Assembly (NCBI GenBank): GCA_009869945.1
Contig: WIXG01000019.1
Coordinates: forward strand, 62,001-126,000
Length of the DNA: 64,000 nucleotides
Source: Mesaphorura yosii
Taxonomy: Eukaryota; Arthropoda; Collembola; Poduromorpha; Tullbergiidae
Direction of reading: 5' to 3'
Part shown: positions 55,047 to 64,000 of the stretch, piece after piece
Layout of the letters: the number at the start of each line of letters is the position of its first letter
Position numbering within the stretch: the first letter of the stretch is position 1
Notes under the pieces: model-generated
Seen by the model: only the letters and a program-made list of their open reading frames with translations
Told to the model about the DNA's origin: nothing
The model's database searches: none
Program-made: the position numbers and the translations under genes

Positions 55047-58000
55047 TTATAGCGAAGGATCCAGATAGCAGTGGCCTTCGTTCTGGTAGCACCACTGCGG
55101 CTGCAGTCGATCGGCTCCGATTCCTCTCTCTACGAGGAACTTGCGAATTTCAATCATGCGGTACTCCAGCTTTTCCCAGTCATACGCGGGATTCGTCCAC
55201 AGTCTTTCGGCTAGCGCAGCAGCTCTGGGAAAGATTCTGCTATCTGCAGAGTGCTCGTCCGCCTGAAATCCACGAATTTGCGAATCTGCCAATTAGTCTT
55301 TAGAAATGCACGTCACGGTCGCGACATTTCCAAGCTGCTTTACGACTTACCTGCTCCGACCAGAGTTCCGCCGAGCCGCCCAAAATCAGTCCATCATTGA
55401 AGGCCTTCTCTGCTTCTGCCTTTGTACTCAGACTGGCGTAGATTTTGATTGGGTCGTTTGCATAAACTTGCTAAATTCAAATTAACATCGGCTTTCATTT
55501 CGCCAAACTAGAGGTGCATTTAAAATTACAACCTGCCATCCTTTGTAGGGCGAACACCTGCGCAAGAAAATATGCCAATGCCAATAGCTTATTTGTTCGC
55601 CTGCAAAGAAATACGAGTTTGGACTCTCACCAATTATTTGGCCCAACTCCAACCCAGCCTCCGAAACCTACAAAAGTAATAAGAATACGAGCCAAGCCAC
55701 TGAATAACGGGCAAGAAGAATTATGAATATTGCACTTATTTTACCGCAATCCAGGTACCAAGCGTCGTAGTTTGAGAAAATGACTCGATATTTCTTGTCA
55801 ATCAGCTTTGCAATTGATGAATCATCCGCTAGAAACACAAACCAGTCATAATCAGACAAGACGAATGTTATTGAGACGTGGGACCGCCTGCTTTTGCCGT
55901 ACTCACATTTGCTCCAAATCTGAATAACGTAGCGTAATTTGTCCAAGTATTTCTCGATGTATTTATCGTCAGTGATATCCGACGTCCAAAGAATTGCCGT
56001 CAAATCGTTGCCGTGATTCGCCTCCTTCAATAATTCGTAAGCTGCAAAATAAAATACGTGTAAAATGCGTGCTTCATTCAAGAACATATCCAAAGTTCAT
56101 TACGACTTACCTCGATGCTGAAACCGTCCCCACAAATCAATGAAACTCTCCTGACTGAGATCTTTCCCTTCCTTCCGGAGCCAGTCTCTGATCTCCGAAG
56201 AAGAGTTCCAGCAGTTGTAATTAATTTCATCTCCACCCATGTGAAAAATGTCTGAAATACCGCCACAAGTTAATTTTGAATATTTTGTGTAGGATGTCCC
56301 GAAATACTTAAGCACGAAATGAAGAACTACCTTTGTCAAATATGTCCAGAAAATCAGCATACAATTTCCCTAAAGTAAAAATCCTCGCTGAGCAAATTGA
56401 GCGCAGATACATTGAAAATATATTTACCCTTTGAAAATCTTACCCAAAATAGGGAACAAATGCTCATTGACCACGTTCAATTGTCCACACGGAGGCTCGA
56501 CGCAGTACTTTTGCCTATAAACGCAAGTTCTTTGAAATTGAGAAAAAACTTTGCTCTATTACATCAGGAAGCAAACAATTGTTGACTTGCTGACCATGGT
56601 TCCTTATTAATGCAGATGGCCAGATCTCCAAGTTCATTCGAGGAGCCCCACTGCCAGCCATTCCCTGAAGCAAAAAACGATCAAGAAATTAGGCAATTTT
56701 ATTCGGTCTGTGAGCCTCTAAATTCTGACCTGTGTGAGCGGGCTGATCGAATTCTGGAACGACCTTCACTCCTCGAACTCTGGCGTAGACAACGATATCC
56801 TCCATGTCTGCGACGCTGTAAACTTCTCGCCGCGAGTACGCTCCGAACTGTGTCAGCTAAAAGCAATGCGATGCAATACGCAATTAATTTTTAGCAGGAT
56901 ATGGCAGGGTTGAAATGGCTGAAAGGGGCGCGCGTAGCTTTACCCGCGGCTCCCGTTTCGAGTAGAACGGAAACGAGTGCGTGTCGGTGATGTGCCAGTG
57001 AAACATGTTGAGCTTGACGTACGACATGCCGTCGATGATTCTTTTGATGCTGTCGACAGAGTAAAAGTTCCTTGCCGTGTCAAGCATAATTCCTCTGTAC
57101 GGGTACGTCGGCTTGTCGTGCACGCTCGCCCTGGCCACGGTCGCCAAGCTCCCTGTGTCATCGTCGTACGCTATCAGTTGGATGAGTGTCTCCAGCCCAT
57201 GCCTGGCTCCAAAATACGTGCTCGCCGTGATGGCCACTTGAAGAATGTTCTGAAAGGTGAAAGGTGCTCCGAATTAAATTTTGATATTTTCGGAATGCTG
57301 TCGCATTAAATCTACCTTTCCAGGGTCATGGTGCACTGACAGCACGTATGCTTCGTCCGTCTCGAGCGTAAGTGTTTTATCTTTGTCGTCTTGGGGCCAG
57401 AGGCCTTTGACGGTTATGAACACTTTGTTTTTAGACACCGACTCGGTTCGTTCCACACTCTTGCCACTAGCTTGCTTCTGTAAAAATTTTGCGCTTGAAA
57501 GAATTCTCTTCCCTCATGCGGTTCGGTAGCCTGTCTTTTCTGTTTACCTTGTCCAGGTACTCCCTGAATATTCTCGTTCCTTCCTGGAATAGCCCAACAT
57601 TTCGCTCAACGTTCTCCGCATCCAGTTGGGTAAATCCAACGTTTTCGGGGTAAAACCGGAAGTACTCCCTGCTAATCTCAACTTGCCCGGTCGGTCGAGG
57701 TAAAATCGTTCCGTGCGGGTCGCAGTTCAGCTTGCCTGCAGTACAAACATGGCGAAACAGAAGAATAAAGCGAGTTAAAAAAAATTAAGGGCTCAACTGA
57801 CAAACTGCGACTGGCACGCCATGTTCTCCTGGCCCCAACTCCTTCTTCTCGAGTTTTACGCAGAGTTTGTTTCTGCAGACCCACGTCCAGGGCGAGGCGA
57901 ATTCAGCACCGTGACTAAAAGAAACAGGAACCATCGGATTCAATTCAATTCAGATTTCCTAATCACTTGATTCGATTCTTGCTTCAATTCTTACTCTACT

Positions 58001-58074
58001 GGGGATACTGATTCCAGCCCCATGCACAAGACCCAGACCACAATTGCCAGAATTTGAATCCATTGGAACTCCAT
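55047..58074 (-). CDS. GH20 beta-N-acetylhexosaminidase (chitooligosaccharide type), complete, 16 exons
   Basis: This is a secreted or lysosomal enzyme removing terminal GlcNAc from chitin oligomers or N-glycans. Exons: 58074-57995, 57914-57802, 57735-57548, 57477-57316, 57249-56944, 56856-56730, 56664-56595, 56514-56444, 56369-56331, 56251-56111, 56041-55907, 55828-55745, 55667-55631, 55557-55533, 55470-55351 and 55262-55047, giving 637 aa. A hydrophobic N-terminus (IQILAIVVWVLCMGLESVS) acts as signal. The domain shows YPYRGIMLDTARNFYSVDSI, LNMFHWHITDTHSFPFYS, VVPEFDQPAHTGNGWQWG and the catalytic Asp393-Glu394 in HMGGDEINYNCW. Late motifs are LWSEQADE and RAAALAERLW. GGSAELW replaces the usual GGEAxLW. 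Exon 14 is only 25 bp (CSPYKGWQ). A head-to-head paralogue begins 2.1 kb away. Confidence 0.95.
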
Positions 58075-60163
58075 TTTTAATTTTTCGCCTGGCACGGCAG
58101 CAGGCGACGCGAGTGATTATCGAATGCTTCGACAATTCGACTACACTGTTTCGCTTCGCGTTTACTCGCTGAGACAGAGAAATCAGCCGTGGGACAGCTA
58201 ATGATCATGTTGACATCACCAGCGTGTTGTTTTTATTTGTATTCATAGCTGTCATTCGAAATTTTTCCACGTCGCGTGTCCATTACGGCTGTGTCGTCGT
58301 TTAGGATGCGCGATCGCCATCCCTAAAAAGGAGATTTTAAAAGTAGCATCAGCATCATTACCATTAGCATGAAACATTAGCATTGCTAGGCGGCATTGCC
58401 ACTCAGTAGTGCCACTGCCAGTCGTGTGCAACACGTAAAGTCCCAAACTCAAAACCGGCTACCACCAGTTAAGTACAGAAAGTAAAAATTACAGAACCAC
58501 GGACCAATTTTCGGACTTGTCTTTTCTCGCGTTGCTCCGAAACAGACGACAAATTCGTATAAAGGTGGCACAGGGCGTAAGCGAATGAGTAAAAATGCTA
58601 TAAGAAGCAGGCAAGGGAAATCAATTAAACTTCAACTAGCATGCATTTCTTCATGGAGTACTTAATTTTGCGTTGAAGTAATTAACTTGGTGAAAGGTGG
58701 CAATCGTGCCATCAATCGAGCCTAATCAATTGATAATTAACACCAATTGCTTAATTACAGTCATTTCTCGGATTCGGATTAATTCGTTCATTTGATGAAC
58801 TTTTCTGTCGCTTGCGCGCATACGCGTGCGGTGGCACGGTTGTTGGTGGAATACAGTTGATTGCCTTGAGTGTTTGTTGGGGGTCAGTGGCCGCGCAATT
58901 TCTCAGGTGCGGTGGAATCTCAGGGTGAACAACTATTCGCTTTATTGTTTATGGCAGTGGACGCAGAATGCTGAAACAGCAGCAGTCAGGCAGTCGGGTC
59001 GTTGGCCAAACAGCACAGCAATGCAGAAACAAATTGTAACCGAGAGTAAAACTTAAATGAGCAGAGAGCAGAGACAATTCTGCTGCGACCAGGCTCGAGC
59101 TTCATCAAAATCGCATTTATCATCCTGCCTGCATGAAAGCAAGTTTAAAGAACCAGACATGAATACCAAAACCGAGTGCACGATTGTGCTTGAATGGGAA
59201 ACTTCATCACATCGTTAAGCGATTTAAATCTTTCACATGCGTGTGAATTTACTGCTTTTGGGGTATTTAAAACCGTTTCAAGAAAAGATGAGTCGAGTAA
59301 AAACTGCCACTTTATACAGTATGCCATTATTTTTAAATTTAATTTTGCCTGATGCCTCACAATTAATGCGAAGGAATGTCAACTCAGTTGCTCGCGGAGG
59401 AAAAGACAAAAGATTCCATGATCCGAGTTTGCGTGGCCGTTCGTCGGTGGTTTGTCATTGACTGGATCGGTGATTTATGATAACAATGACTTCAACTTGA
59501 AACCTGCCTGCCGAGACATTCTCTCCGTGTTTACAAACGCGTGACGCTGATCTTCTGATCCGAGTATGAATTTCATTCTGCGAAAGAGTACCTGTTTGAG
59601 GTGCTTAACTTCATTCAGGCGTGTCGCCATCACGTAAGTTGCACGGCCACGACGTGGCGGTGCGGAGTTCATGGATATTAAGCAGTTTATTAAATTAAGA
59701 GCCTGGGGACTCATCGCGGCTGGCTGTGGCCAGGGCAGAAAGAAAAGAAAAGTCGAGTGTGCAGGCAGCGAAGGGAAAACAGGATTTTTTGGGCGATTAA
59801 AGTTGTCTTGTGCGCTGAGGTCATTTAGGCGATGAATCTTGTTTCTTGTTTTTAGCAAAAAACTAAAGCGAGTCGGGTCCGTTGGCATCGGGGCCCAAGC
59901 AAACCAGTGCCTGCAGGAAAGTCCAAGAGAAATCAACGCGTCGACGCAAGATTTCTCAGTCCAACCCAACCAAGAAAGAAGAAGCTCCCATATTTTAATT
60001 ACACTTACGTCGGCTCAGACATTCGCCAGGGTGGACAACTGCCGCATTTCGGTTTCTGGGGCCTACCACCACCGTCGACAGCAGCGACTGAGCTGACACT
60101 GACGGCGTCCGTCAGTTAGTTAACTGTATTTACTCTACCTCTCGTTAGTTAGTGTAATTAAGT
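58075..60163. promoter_or_regulatory. Shared upstream region of the divergent hexosaminidase pair
   Basis: About 2.1 kb lie between the two start codons, with no supported exon inside. A TATAAA occurs at 58558-58563 on the plus strand, too far from the right gene's ATG to be its promoter unless a 5' intron exists. Shared control of the two paralogues is plausible but not shown. Confidence 0.4.
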
Positions 60164-62782
60164 ATGGATAAGATTAAGTTGTTAATGATCGTTGCGGCCG
60201 TCGCAACCTTTGCCATCATCTACCTCCCGACTGAATCTCAAGCCCAGTCGTACTTTCGGTAAGCCGCTCGCCCTCTTTGCCCAACTTCTTTTCACGATTC
60301 TCGCACGTATGAGCCCACCCGGTGTGGCGTGCCGTTGCCCGACCCCGTCTCAAAGTACCCCTCTCGAAATTCAACAGAATGCCCTCGCCCTGGACTTACG
60401 TCTGCAAAAATGGAACCTGTGCTAAAAAGCTGAGGTCAGACTCGACAGTCATTCAGTCGCTGGACACCTGCCGTCTTCGATGCGGACGCTTCCGTGCTAT
60501 CTGGCCACGACCAACAGGTGAAAAGCAACTTTCAACCTCAGGACCGCATGGCAAATTATTAATTGCATCTTGCAATATGGTTATCACGTCTCTCGCCTCG
60601 TCTTTCAGGGGACGTTGAACTGAGTCGAGTGGTCGTCCCGTTCAAGCCGCAGAATCTGCGAGTGCTTCCAGTCACCGCTCCAACTGACCGCATCAGGGAA
60701 CTCTTGAACCGAGTTGTCACCGACTTCCAATCCAATGTGCTCAAGACTCACCCCAACTACGTCGAAGGAGGGCCCAATCCCTTTGACAAGCAGTACGACA
60801 ACGTGATTGAAGGAACCATCGTCCAAGTTCAGGTGAGTGGCGGCTCCAAGTTCGCCCAATTCAGTTGTGATCTTGTACTTCCAGTAACAAGTAACTGATT
60901 TCAAAACACAGGTCACTGTCGACGATCCAGAGGAACGGCTTACGCTTGAGACGTCTGAAGGTTATCGAATTGACATCGAAACTCAAGGAAACACTGTGAC
61001 AGCCGAAATTCGTGGAGACACATTCTTCGGAGCTCGACATGGTCTGGAGACACTCAGCCAGCTCATCGCCTACGACGAGCAGAGAGACACAACTCAAATC
61101 ATTTCGGCTGGAGCAGTCATTGACAGACCGCTCTTCGCATATCGTGGTCTCATGCTGGACACATCAAGAAACTTTGTGTCCATCAAGGGAATGAAGAAAC
61201 TCGTCGATGGAATGTCGTACAACAAATTGAATACTCTTCACTGGCACATCACAGACTCGCATTCATTCCCATTCTACTCTCAGCGAGTTCCCCAACTGAC
61301 ACTTTATGGAGCTTACACCCCGGAGAAAATTTACTTCCCGGAAGAAATCAAAGACTTTGTGGAATACGCCCGCATCAAGTAAGCAACCCCAACGATTGTT
61401 GATCATTTTGACACTCGACACTTTGAACAAGGGACGAATAATTCCAACTAATTCTTAGGGGAGTCCGAGTTATTCCCGAGTTGGATGCTCCTTCTCACAT
61501 CAGCAGTGGATGGCAAGGACTGGAACGCAGTAACACCGTTGAACCAGGTACTAATACTTGCTGTAAGCGTTGACCTTAAATCCAGGATCCCGTGACGGAA
61601 TGGAGCAGGGTCTCATTCCTCATTCTCCTTTAAGGTCCAAACACAATTCAACCAGCTGCTGTCAGTGTGACGAGCGGAGGACCAATGGCCGTGTGTGTAA
61701 ACGCGGAGCCCTGGAACCAATTCTGCAGTGAACCTCCTTGTGGTCAATTGAATCCAGTCAACGAGCAGACATACCTCGTCTTGGGTAAGCCGGATTTATT
61801 TTTGTTTCTAAGTTGGATTTTTTTGAATGGAAGCCTGGCAGTTAATGTGATTATCATCTTTAGGCAAACTGTACCGTGACTTGTTGAGCGTGTTTGACAC
61901 TGACGCCTTTCACATGGGAGGAGACGATGTGAACTTCAACTGCTGGAACTCGAGTAAAGAAATCACCGACTTCTTAACCGCCCAACGACGCAACCGAACG
62001 GAGCGAGAATTCTTGCAGCTATGGGCCACCTTCCAGCGCAGGTAAGCTGAAGAATTACTTGCAATTATCTGATCACGGTGCAACTTTAATGTGCGATTGG
62101 TTTAGAGCGTACGTTGAACTCGTGCGTGCCGCCCGAGGCACTGAACTCACTCCAATTGTCTGGGCTTCCAACTTGCTCGTCCAAGAAAATATTGAGAACA
62201 TTTTGGACCCGGAGAGATACATAGTTCACTTCCGAAACAGCGGTCGCGATCGTTCGCTCGCCGCTATTCTTGACAAAGGCTACCGAGTCGTCTTTTCCAA
62301 TCGCGATGCGTGGCAGTTTGACTGTGGGTTCGGAGATTGGGTAAGAAAAGGAGGAGACTTGGGTTGTACTTGTCTGGTACTCGGGACTCGGAGCTATACG
62401 CTTGATTTATTTGCAGATGGGTGAGGGTCGTGGATCTTGCGGTGGCTACAAAACTTGGCAGCGAGTATACGATAACAATCCACTCCGTGTGATTGCTCAA
62501 CTGAATACAACCGAGGAAATTGACTTGCAACCGGGACAAATCATTGGCGGTGAAGCGGCGCTGTGGTCTGAGCAAGTCGACGAAATGGGATTGGAGGCGA
62601 AGGTCTGGCCACGAGGAGCTGCCCTTGCCGAGCGCCTGTGGGCGAATCCCTTCTCATCCTGGAGAGATGCTGCTGACCGGCTCATTCATCACAGAGAACG
62701 ACTCGTGAAACGTGGAATCTTTGCGGACCGCCTTCAACCAGAATGGTGCCTTCAGAATCAGGGACGCTGCTCATCAAACTAA
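60164..62782 (+). CDS. GH20 beta-N-acetylhexosaminidase paralogue with Asp-Asp in place of the catalytic Asp-Glu, complete, 9 exons
   Basis: Exons: 60164-60258, 60378-60517, 60609-60832, 60912-61378, 61459-61547, 61635-61784, 61864-62041, 62106-62340 and 62417-62782, giving 647 aa. The N-terminus is a signal peptide or anchor (LLMIVAAVATFAIIYLP). A cysteine-rich N-terminal segment (WTYVCKNGTCAKKL) precedes the GH20 barrel: FAYRGLMLDTSRNFVSIKG, LNTLHWHITDSHSFPFYS, VIPELDAPSHISSGWQG, HMGGDDVNFNCWNSS, IIGGEAALWSEQVDE and GAALAERLWANPF. In GH20 enzymes the last residue of HxGGDE is the general acid. Here codon 410 (61926-61928, GAT) is Asp. The reading frame is otherwise intact, so this is not a decayed gene. 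It may be slow, specialised, or a binding protein. AATAAA lies just after the stop near 62797. Confidence 0.95.
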
Positions 62783-63239: not shown

Positions 63240-64000
63240 TTAATCAGAGTCAATCATAATGACGTCTTCCGGTTCGTCACTTTCTTCGTCCTCCTCGTCG
63301 ACGTCGCGGTCACCGCCTTCGTCGTGGTCGTCTTGTTCCTCTTCGCCGTAATCGTCTTCATCATTATCTTCATCTTCCTCCTGTTCTTCCTCACTGCTCT
63401 CGCTATCTCTCCCGCCTCGTTGCTGCAGCTCCTGCTTTCTTCTGCCTTGGCCTTGGCTTGGATATTGCTGCATTCGGGTGCCTCCCGTGGCCATTGAAAC
63501 TGATGCGGGAAGCTGACTTAACTGACCCTGGCCTTGGCTGCTAGAAGACTGGCTGAATCGTCCTCCATCTTGTGAGTAAGTGATTGTGACTGATGCGAGG
63601 AATGAAGGAATGGATCCTTCCCTCAGGAGGAATCTGTCAATGTCATCCCGAAAGTGCTCCAAAACAGGCGTCTCCAACAGCATCATGTCACTATTCTCGG
63701 CCTCCTGCGTTAATTGCACATAAATTAAATCAACGCAATGACAAGACTCAGAAATCTGTAACTATACGTATGCATTGATTTAGAATTCTGAACAAAAGCA
63801 AACGGAATTTAAGCAATGTACGCTTGGTAGCTGATTTAATTAACGTCACTTACTTGGAAAATGAACAAATCGTCGGGAGAGGTCGAACTGATGCTCTGGA
63901 GTCTGATTTGGGATTGAGGTTCACGGATAAGCGTCACGTAGAATCCGAAAAGCTTGGTGCAAGCTTGCTGCAGTTGAACGGTTTCATAATTGTATGCTTC
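63240..64000 (-). CDS. MAD1: Spindle checkpoint protein MAD1, C-terminal exons (partial, runs off the right edge)
   Basis: Mad1 is a coiled-coil protein at unattached kinetochores and nuclear pores that recruits and converts Mad2. Two exons are in the window: 64000-63854 (5' end outside) and 63704-63240. The first encodes ACTKLFGFYVTLIREPQSQI and DDLFIFQ, matching the RWD-like C-terminal domain (FGYxV...D..LxF). The second has MMLLETPVLEHFRDDID and LREGSIPSFLASVTI, matching the Mad1 end (LLETEF...QDSIPAFLSSLT). Human Mad1 stops a few residues later. This protein continues for about 125 residues of Ser/Gln-rich then strongly acidic sequence, ending DVIMIDSD. The Mad2-binding region lies outside. 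The identification rests on about 90 C-terminal residues. Confidence 0.82.

Follow-up and report, generated by a model that had tools for sequence, protein, structure and literature searches.

What does a hexosaminidase gene encode once the catalytic glutamate of its family has given way to aspartate? This question is raised by gene B, a member of glycoside hydrolase family 20 (GH20) in the collembolan Mesaphorura yosii, which lies at 60164..62782 (+ strand) of the window, the 64,000-nucleotide stretch of DNA analyzed here (contig WIXG01000019.1, positions 62,001 to 126,000). Judged from its sequence, gene B has very probably lost catalysis. The reading that we favor, with fair confidence, is that its product is a secreted, catalytically dead GH20 protein that acts via binding of N-acetylglucosamine (GlcNAc) glycans. 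A lectin-like role in particular, argued by analogy, is a candidate function to which we give somewhat less than an even chance.

Gene B consists of nine exons (60164-60258, 60378-60517, 60609-60832, 60912-61378, 61459-61547, 61635-61784, 61864-62041, 62106-62340 and 62417-62782, stop codon included), whose boundaries were set by hand and which are separated by eight GT-AG introns. The translated protein matches Pfam PF00728 (Glyco_hydro_20) with 279.4 bits relative to a curated cut-off of 22.3, over profile positions 1-347 of 348, which places it in the family, and it also matches PF14845 (Glycohydro_20b2). The top match in the PDB is 3s6t (E 8.3e-148), which we take to be the V327G variant of OfHex1, in agreement with the Gly at 327 in our site table. 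It leads a group of insect-type chains that includes 3nsn, described as OfHex1 of Ostrinia furnacalis. Gene B and OfHex1 are identical at 240 of 560 aligned residues. An N-terminal cysteine-containing stretch, together with OfHex1 as the closest solved match, assigns gene B to the insect/crustacean NAG group; a GH20b-like domain and the GH20 barrel are also common to gene B and the OfHex1-type chitinolytic enzymes of insects and crustaceans. The hydrophobic N-terminus (MDKIKLLMIVAAVATFAIIYLPTESQAQ, 60164..60247, +) is a probable signal peptide with a guessed cleavage point, and the product is probably secreted or anchored. Spliced alignment with OfHex1 as the query differs from the hand model at three places. 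At exons 5/6, alignment with this distant query picked another in-frame GT-AG intron (61530-61679), which, if used, shortens the loop that precedes the +1 subsite by taking out an unusual insertion; this choice does not touch the codons of the lost residues named below, nor those of His303 and Glu328.

The catalytic motif of gene B, CACATGGGAGGAGACGATGTGAACTTCAACTGCTGG at 61911-61946 (+), is made up of the codons CAC ATG GGA GGA GAC GAT GTG AAC TTC AAC TGC TGG and translates to HMGGDDVNFNCW. The motif of the neighboring, divergently oriented GH20 gene (gene A) reads HMGGDEINYNCW at 56208-56243 (-). These are the only two sites in the window that match a degenerate form of the motif with three or fewer mismatches, and 100 shuffles gave no match. 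A preliminary description of this DNA had reported a Glu-to-Asp change in the GH20 signature, a neighbor that retains the Glu motif, and an intact coding frame and splicing. All of these observations were borne out: GAT at 61926-61928 encodes Asp410 where OfHex1 has Glu368, gene A carries HMGGDE, and the 647 amino acids (aa) of gene B run uninterrupted across eight GT-AG introns.

We anchored the OfHex1 numbering on the Glu of HMGGDE as residue 368, upon which Trp448, Tyr475, Asp477, Trp490 and Trp524 landed on the expected letters. In gene B, Asp409 (GAC, 61923..61925, +) corresponds to Asp367 and is kept, while four positions are lost: the general acid/base Glu368 is Asp410 (61926..61928, +), Trp448 is Arg491 (CGA, 62233..62235, +), Tyr475 is Gln518 (CAG, 62314..62316, +) and Trp490 of the +1 subsite, a position that is variable across the wider family, is Ser533 (TCT, 62435..62437, +). 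Thus, where active GH20 enzymes have an Asp-Glu catalytic pair, gene B has Asp-Asp (61923-61928), the Tyr for the N-acetyl oxygen is absent, and two of the three Trp residues that wall the -1 pocket (Trp424, Trp448, Trp524) are present. The pocket residues Arg220, Asp249, His303, Glu328, Asp367, Trp424, Asp477, Trp524 and Glu526 are all retained. The preliminary description had also considered the rest of the barrel to be intact. This is right for the fold but not for the active site, where Trp448, Tyr475 and Trp490 are replaced. Its view that a single conservative change had struck an enzyme left intact elsewhere, and with it any single-residue story for gene B, was rejected on account of the further loss of Trp448 and Tyr475.

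Glu368, Trp448 and Tyr475 are each unchanged in the relatives with which gene B was compared in full. Our site table compares OfHex1 with ten GH20 genes from the same genome, namely gene B, a second Asp-bearing gene on contig C202, and eight Glu-bearing paralogs; Glu368, Trp448 and Tyr475 are present in OfHex1 and in 8/8 of the latter. A GH20 survey described the Glu and Tyr equivalents as completely conserved across its alignment of representatives (PMC2492878), where we infer HEXB Tyr450 to be the counterpart of OfHex1 Tyr475, and a crustacean review rates both acidic residues of the motif, Asp and Glu, as highly conserved (PMC8002005). Search patterns that omitted the catalytic motif gathered at least 581 bacterial relatives; in the best 80 of these, Glu368, Trp448 and Tyr475 are unchanged in 80 of 80. 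Trp490 varies among these 80, the loop being loosely aligned there.

During GH20 catalysis, the Asp orients the N-acetyl group of the substrate and the Tyr keeps the oxygen of that group in position, while the Glu donates a proton to the leaving group. Gene B has lost together the general acid Glu368, its gating and acetamide-wall partner Trp448, and the acetyl-holding Tyr475, so that substrate-assisted cleavage would not proceed at a useful rate and hydrolysis would be absent or negligible. In VhGlcNAcase, the -1 GlcNAc is reported to be held by Arg, Tyr, Asp and Glu and a wall of four Trp residues, and changing Glu438 to Ala or Gln (E438A/Q) left almost no activity (PMC8098473). For OfHex1, Glu368 and Trp448 are described as an open-close pair (PMC6471479) and Asp249-His303-Glu368 as a hydrogen-bond network (PMC3531433). 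Mutation of Trp448 and Trp490 is said to cost more than 2000-fold activity (PMC3344231), a figure that we set aside because it clashes with those of PMC3531433, in which four OfHex1 mutants including W490A lost 1.3 to 14.7-fold in efficiency and the inhibitor Ki of W490A rose 2277-fold. Arg220, Asp477, Glu526, Trp424 and Trp524 would remain in gene B as a partial GlcNAc-holding pocket, which makes binding its most likely mode of action; the ligands would be GlcNAc-ended chitin fragments or glycans, as for the GH18 chitolectins.

The second Asp-bearing gene indicates that the change in gene B is not isolated. The C202 gene (locus L015, C202:128610-130952) encodes 647 aa in an unbroken frame with five GT-AG introns, and its motif reads HMGADD, with Asp at Glu368 and Ala at Gly366. 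It has Lys at Trp448 and Ser at Tyr475, and additionally Arg220 is changed to His, His303 to Arg and Glu526 to Thr, such that the set of sugar contacts retained in part by gene B is smaller still in C202. When four queries were aligned to the C202 locus, gene B scored best (1438) and gene A next (1073), and gene B and C202 are identical at 290 of 613 aligned residues (47%). A tree of 11 rows, calculated after removal of eight pocket columns, grouped gene B with C202 at 87% bootstrap and 97% SH-aLRT, short of the star awarded by the tool. Two columns outside the pocket that are otherwise invariant also carry the same derived residue in both proteins (R230K and L313M). Intron positions are of little use here: both genes are missing five introns that are common to gene A and two further paralogs, L016 and L018, while gene B retains one ancestral intron (388/1). 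The Glu-to-Asp change looks old and shared, because the C202 gene likewise has Asp and is altered at the other two sites as well. The simplest history has catalysis lost once, ahead of the split between the two genes, with independent losses a lesser possibility, and the pair are, as far as sequence can tell, a probable small subfamily of pseudo-hexosaminidases.

We asked how the scaffold and the pocket have fared in these two genes. Seven Glu-bearing NAG-type rows share 96 invariant columns, 11 in the pocket and 85 outside it. Gene B is changed at 3/11 pocket columns and 7/85 others (78/85 kept, Fisher p 0.086), and C202 at 6/11 and 12/85 (73/85 kept, Fisher p 0.005). When each of six Glu-bearing rows was left out in turn (OfHex1 always being kept), none of the 11 pocket columns was changed in any of the six. 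The end branches of the tree measure 0.43 for gene B, 0.47 for gene A and 0.79 for C202. Differences between gene B and C202 fall at 0.39 of first, 0.32 of second and 0.66 of third codon positions, a pattern expected if selection has acted to preserve the sequence at some point after the split.

Several other explanations for gene B were weighed. The dead protein might act as a partner or regulator: in a dimer with an active hexosaminidase, for example that of gene A, it would complete, tune or target the active enzyme, and sugar binding by its own pocket would then be beside the point. We consider this a serious but doubtful candidate, towards which PMC4449183 shifts the balance slightly at the expense of the favored reading. 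OfHex1 is described as dimeric (PMC3531433), insect Hex3 is reported to interact with Hex1 in molting fluid (PMC3741120), the fold is retained while the pocket erodes, most strongly in C202, and genes A and B are divergent, with 2089 bases between their start codons (58075..60163); the C202 gene, however, sits on a different contig from gene A. The further sugar contacts lost from C202 favor a partner role for that gene. It is rather unlikely that gene B is still an enzyme with an altered pH optimum, altered specificity or transglycosylation activity. Asp remains an acid and Asp367, Arg220, Asp249, His303, Asp477 and Glu526 are all in place, but Tyr475 and Trp448, invariant in the bacterial relatives, are gone, and the homolog with Glu changed to Ala or Gln, though not to Asp, is nearly inactive (PMC8098473). 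Among the functions offered by the preliminary description, a GlcNAc-binding or partner protein therefore remains plausible, whereas an altered pH or substrate preference becomes much less likely because Trp448 and Tyr475 are also lost. A pseudogene in early decay, its frame still unbroken, is very improbable: relaxed selection would permit erosion of the active site, and the end branch of C202 is the longer one, but gene B and C202, at 47% identity, are both free of stops with canonical splice sites and retain most of the otherwise invariant non-pocket positions. The chance of an assembly or sequencing error at the GAT codon is negligible. This codon is known from the assembly; against an error, three pocket sites differ jointly and an independent gene also has Asp. 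An error at 61926-61928 was rejected, and both it and a lone substitution are ruled out by the three changed sites, the second gene with Asp and the grouping of gene B with C202.

A number of points count against the favored reading of gene B as a dead, glycan-binding protein. The case for it is a sequence-based one, and an Asp is still able to serve as an acid; in the open-access literature we found no Glu-to-Asp kinetics for GH20. The losses of Tyr475, Trp448 and Trp490 should weaken sugar binding too, and the absence of Arg220, His303 and Glu526 from C202 argues against a pocket lectin there. The list of pocket columns was compiled once the losses had already been noticed, and the enrichment of changes in the pocket of gene B, taken by itself, is not significant. 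From the open fork of the tree, the path to gene B is 0.64, including a stem of 0.21 common with C202, which is longer than that of gene A. In an attempt at dN/dS (the ratio of nonsynonymous to synonymous change), dS was saturated and gave no estimate for two of three pairs; thus, purifying selection after the loss is argued from the intact frame and the conserved scaffold, and not from dN/dS. Lastly, the bootstrap of the grouping with C202 is modest and unstarred, and the two genes have no exact intron position in common.

Pseudoenzymes are a known kind of protein, with classic cases in GH18. The GH18 chitolectins and imaginal disc growth factors are members of a chitin-degrading family in which the catalytic Glu is replaced (PMC1945033). 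Gene B resembles them in that its family domains are present and its catalytic Glu is replaced, but it belongs to an unrelated family with another pocket, and binding by gene B would be an analogy. Within GH20, inactive domains of StrH are reported to bind GlcNAc-ended glycans (PMC8894350); these domains, which we take to be laboratory variants, are parts of a bacterial enzyme, whereas gene B occurs naturally and is altered at several pocket sites. Serratia chitobiase variants 1c7s and 1c7t, labeled beta-N-acetylhexosaminidase, are among the PDB matches of gene B. The latter is presumably the Glu540Asp variant at the same catalytic position, a single laboratory change, in contrast to the several natural ones in gene B, in which Glu368, Trp448, Tyr475 and Trp490 of the OfHex1-type enzymes are all replaced. 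A search of the open-access literature, with most subscription papers outside it, found no natural GH20 pseudoenzyme among the papers listed, and the portion of the Drosophila Hexo1/Hexo2 literature that we drew on mentions no inactive form.

If our reading is correct, a dead, retained and duplicated branch of GH20, the family that completes chitin breakdown and trims N-glycans, would parallel the GH18 origin of dead lectins and growth factors. The natural set of co-lost residues would reveal the pocket positions that are let go when a protein gives up catalysis. The gate positions hold an Asp-Arg pair in gene B and an Asp-Lys pair in C202. Speculatively, Asp410 and Arg491 (Lys in C202) could form a salt bridge at the formerly mobile Glu368/Trp448 gate. 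We propose, tentatively and as a possibility on the unlikely side, a GH20 “hexolectin” subfamily: an old duplicated dead pair in which the gate has become an Asp/basic pair that may lock the pocket, serving as a GlcNAc sensor or as a partner that completes the gene A enzyme.

Gene A (55047..58074, - strand) has 16 exons and encodes 637 aa, with HMGGDE at 56208-56243. It retains all tabulated pocket residues, scores 316 bits with Pfam and is apparently the active paralog adjoining gene B, which allows a direct comparison of the two. The join near 57548/57477 was decided manually, with less certainty for its very short exons. Profile-based annotation labels both genes as GH20 hydrolases, which calls for caution.

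The assembly comprises 93 Mb in 1127 contigs. No COX1 was found in it; among single-domain PDB matches, its arginine kinase scores highest with 4bg4 and other decapod crustacean chains (two double-domain proteins exceed them only through the sum of two matches), which roughly places the source as pancrustacean. A scan of the assembly with PF00728 found at least 15 candidate genes on 13 contigs. Twelve of the 15 could be modeled or read at the motif, and Glu is present in ten and absent from two, gene B and the C202 gene. The remaining three, weaker matches on contigs C378, C36 and C109 (44, 33 and 24 bits), gave no model with NAG-type queries (scores of 58 or less), lie outside all conserved-residue counts and are possibly a distant GH20 branch. 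Two poorly modeled loci lie outside the site table, L013 (contig C120) and L017 (contig C186); each was given two trial models, all of which have Glu368 and Tyr475. At position 448, the models of L013 give Ile and Trp, respectively, and those of L017 give Trp and no residue; Trp424 is also model-dependent in both. We tentatively take the non-Trp readings at 448 for mis-spliced models, since an exon that fits, carrying QIWK or QVWK, is available. Both loci read HLGMDE (Gly366 to Met). A scan of viral contigs with gene B found no relative.

Other paralogs show features of their own. L009 (G000:C373:13603-15405, -) is a NAG-type GH20 gene in a single open frame of 618 aa from the first Met, whose kin have several introns, and it looks like a retrocopy or a case of complete intron loss; its tabulated pocket residues are present except for Glu328, which is Gln. 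L011 and L012 are close GH20 copies, each cut off at one end of the 13.6-kb contig C982, and a protein search with gene B found a similar 5' GH20 fragment of the C373 type at a contig end (C164:167004-167478). These three are perhaps a recent duplication broken by the assembly. The sister genes L018 (contig C107) and L016 (contig C75) have Glu368, Trp448 and Tyr475, with Ser or His at the Trp490 position and His at loop cysteine 478, and L018 reads HMGNDE (Gly366 to Asn). Within the window, just past the 3' end of gene B, an open frame at 63240-63761 (-) ends in a long Asp/Glu-rich acidic tail.
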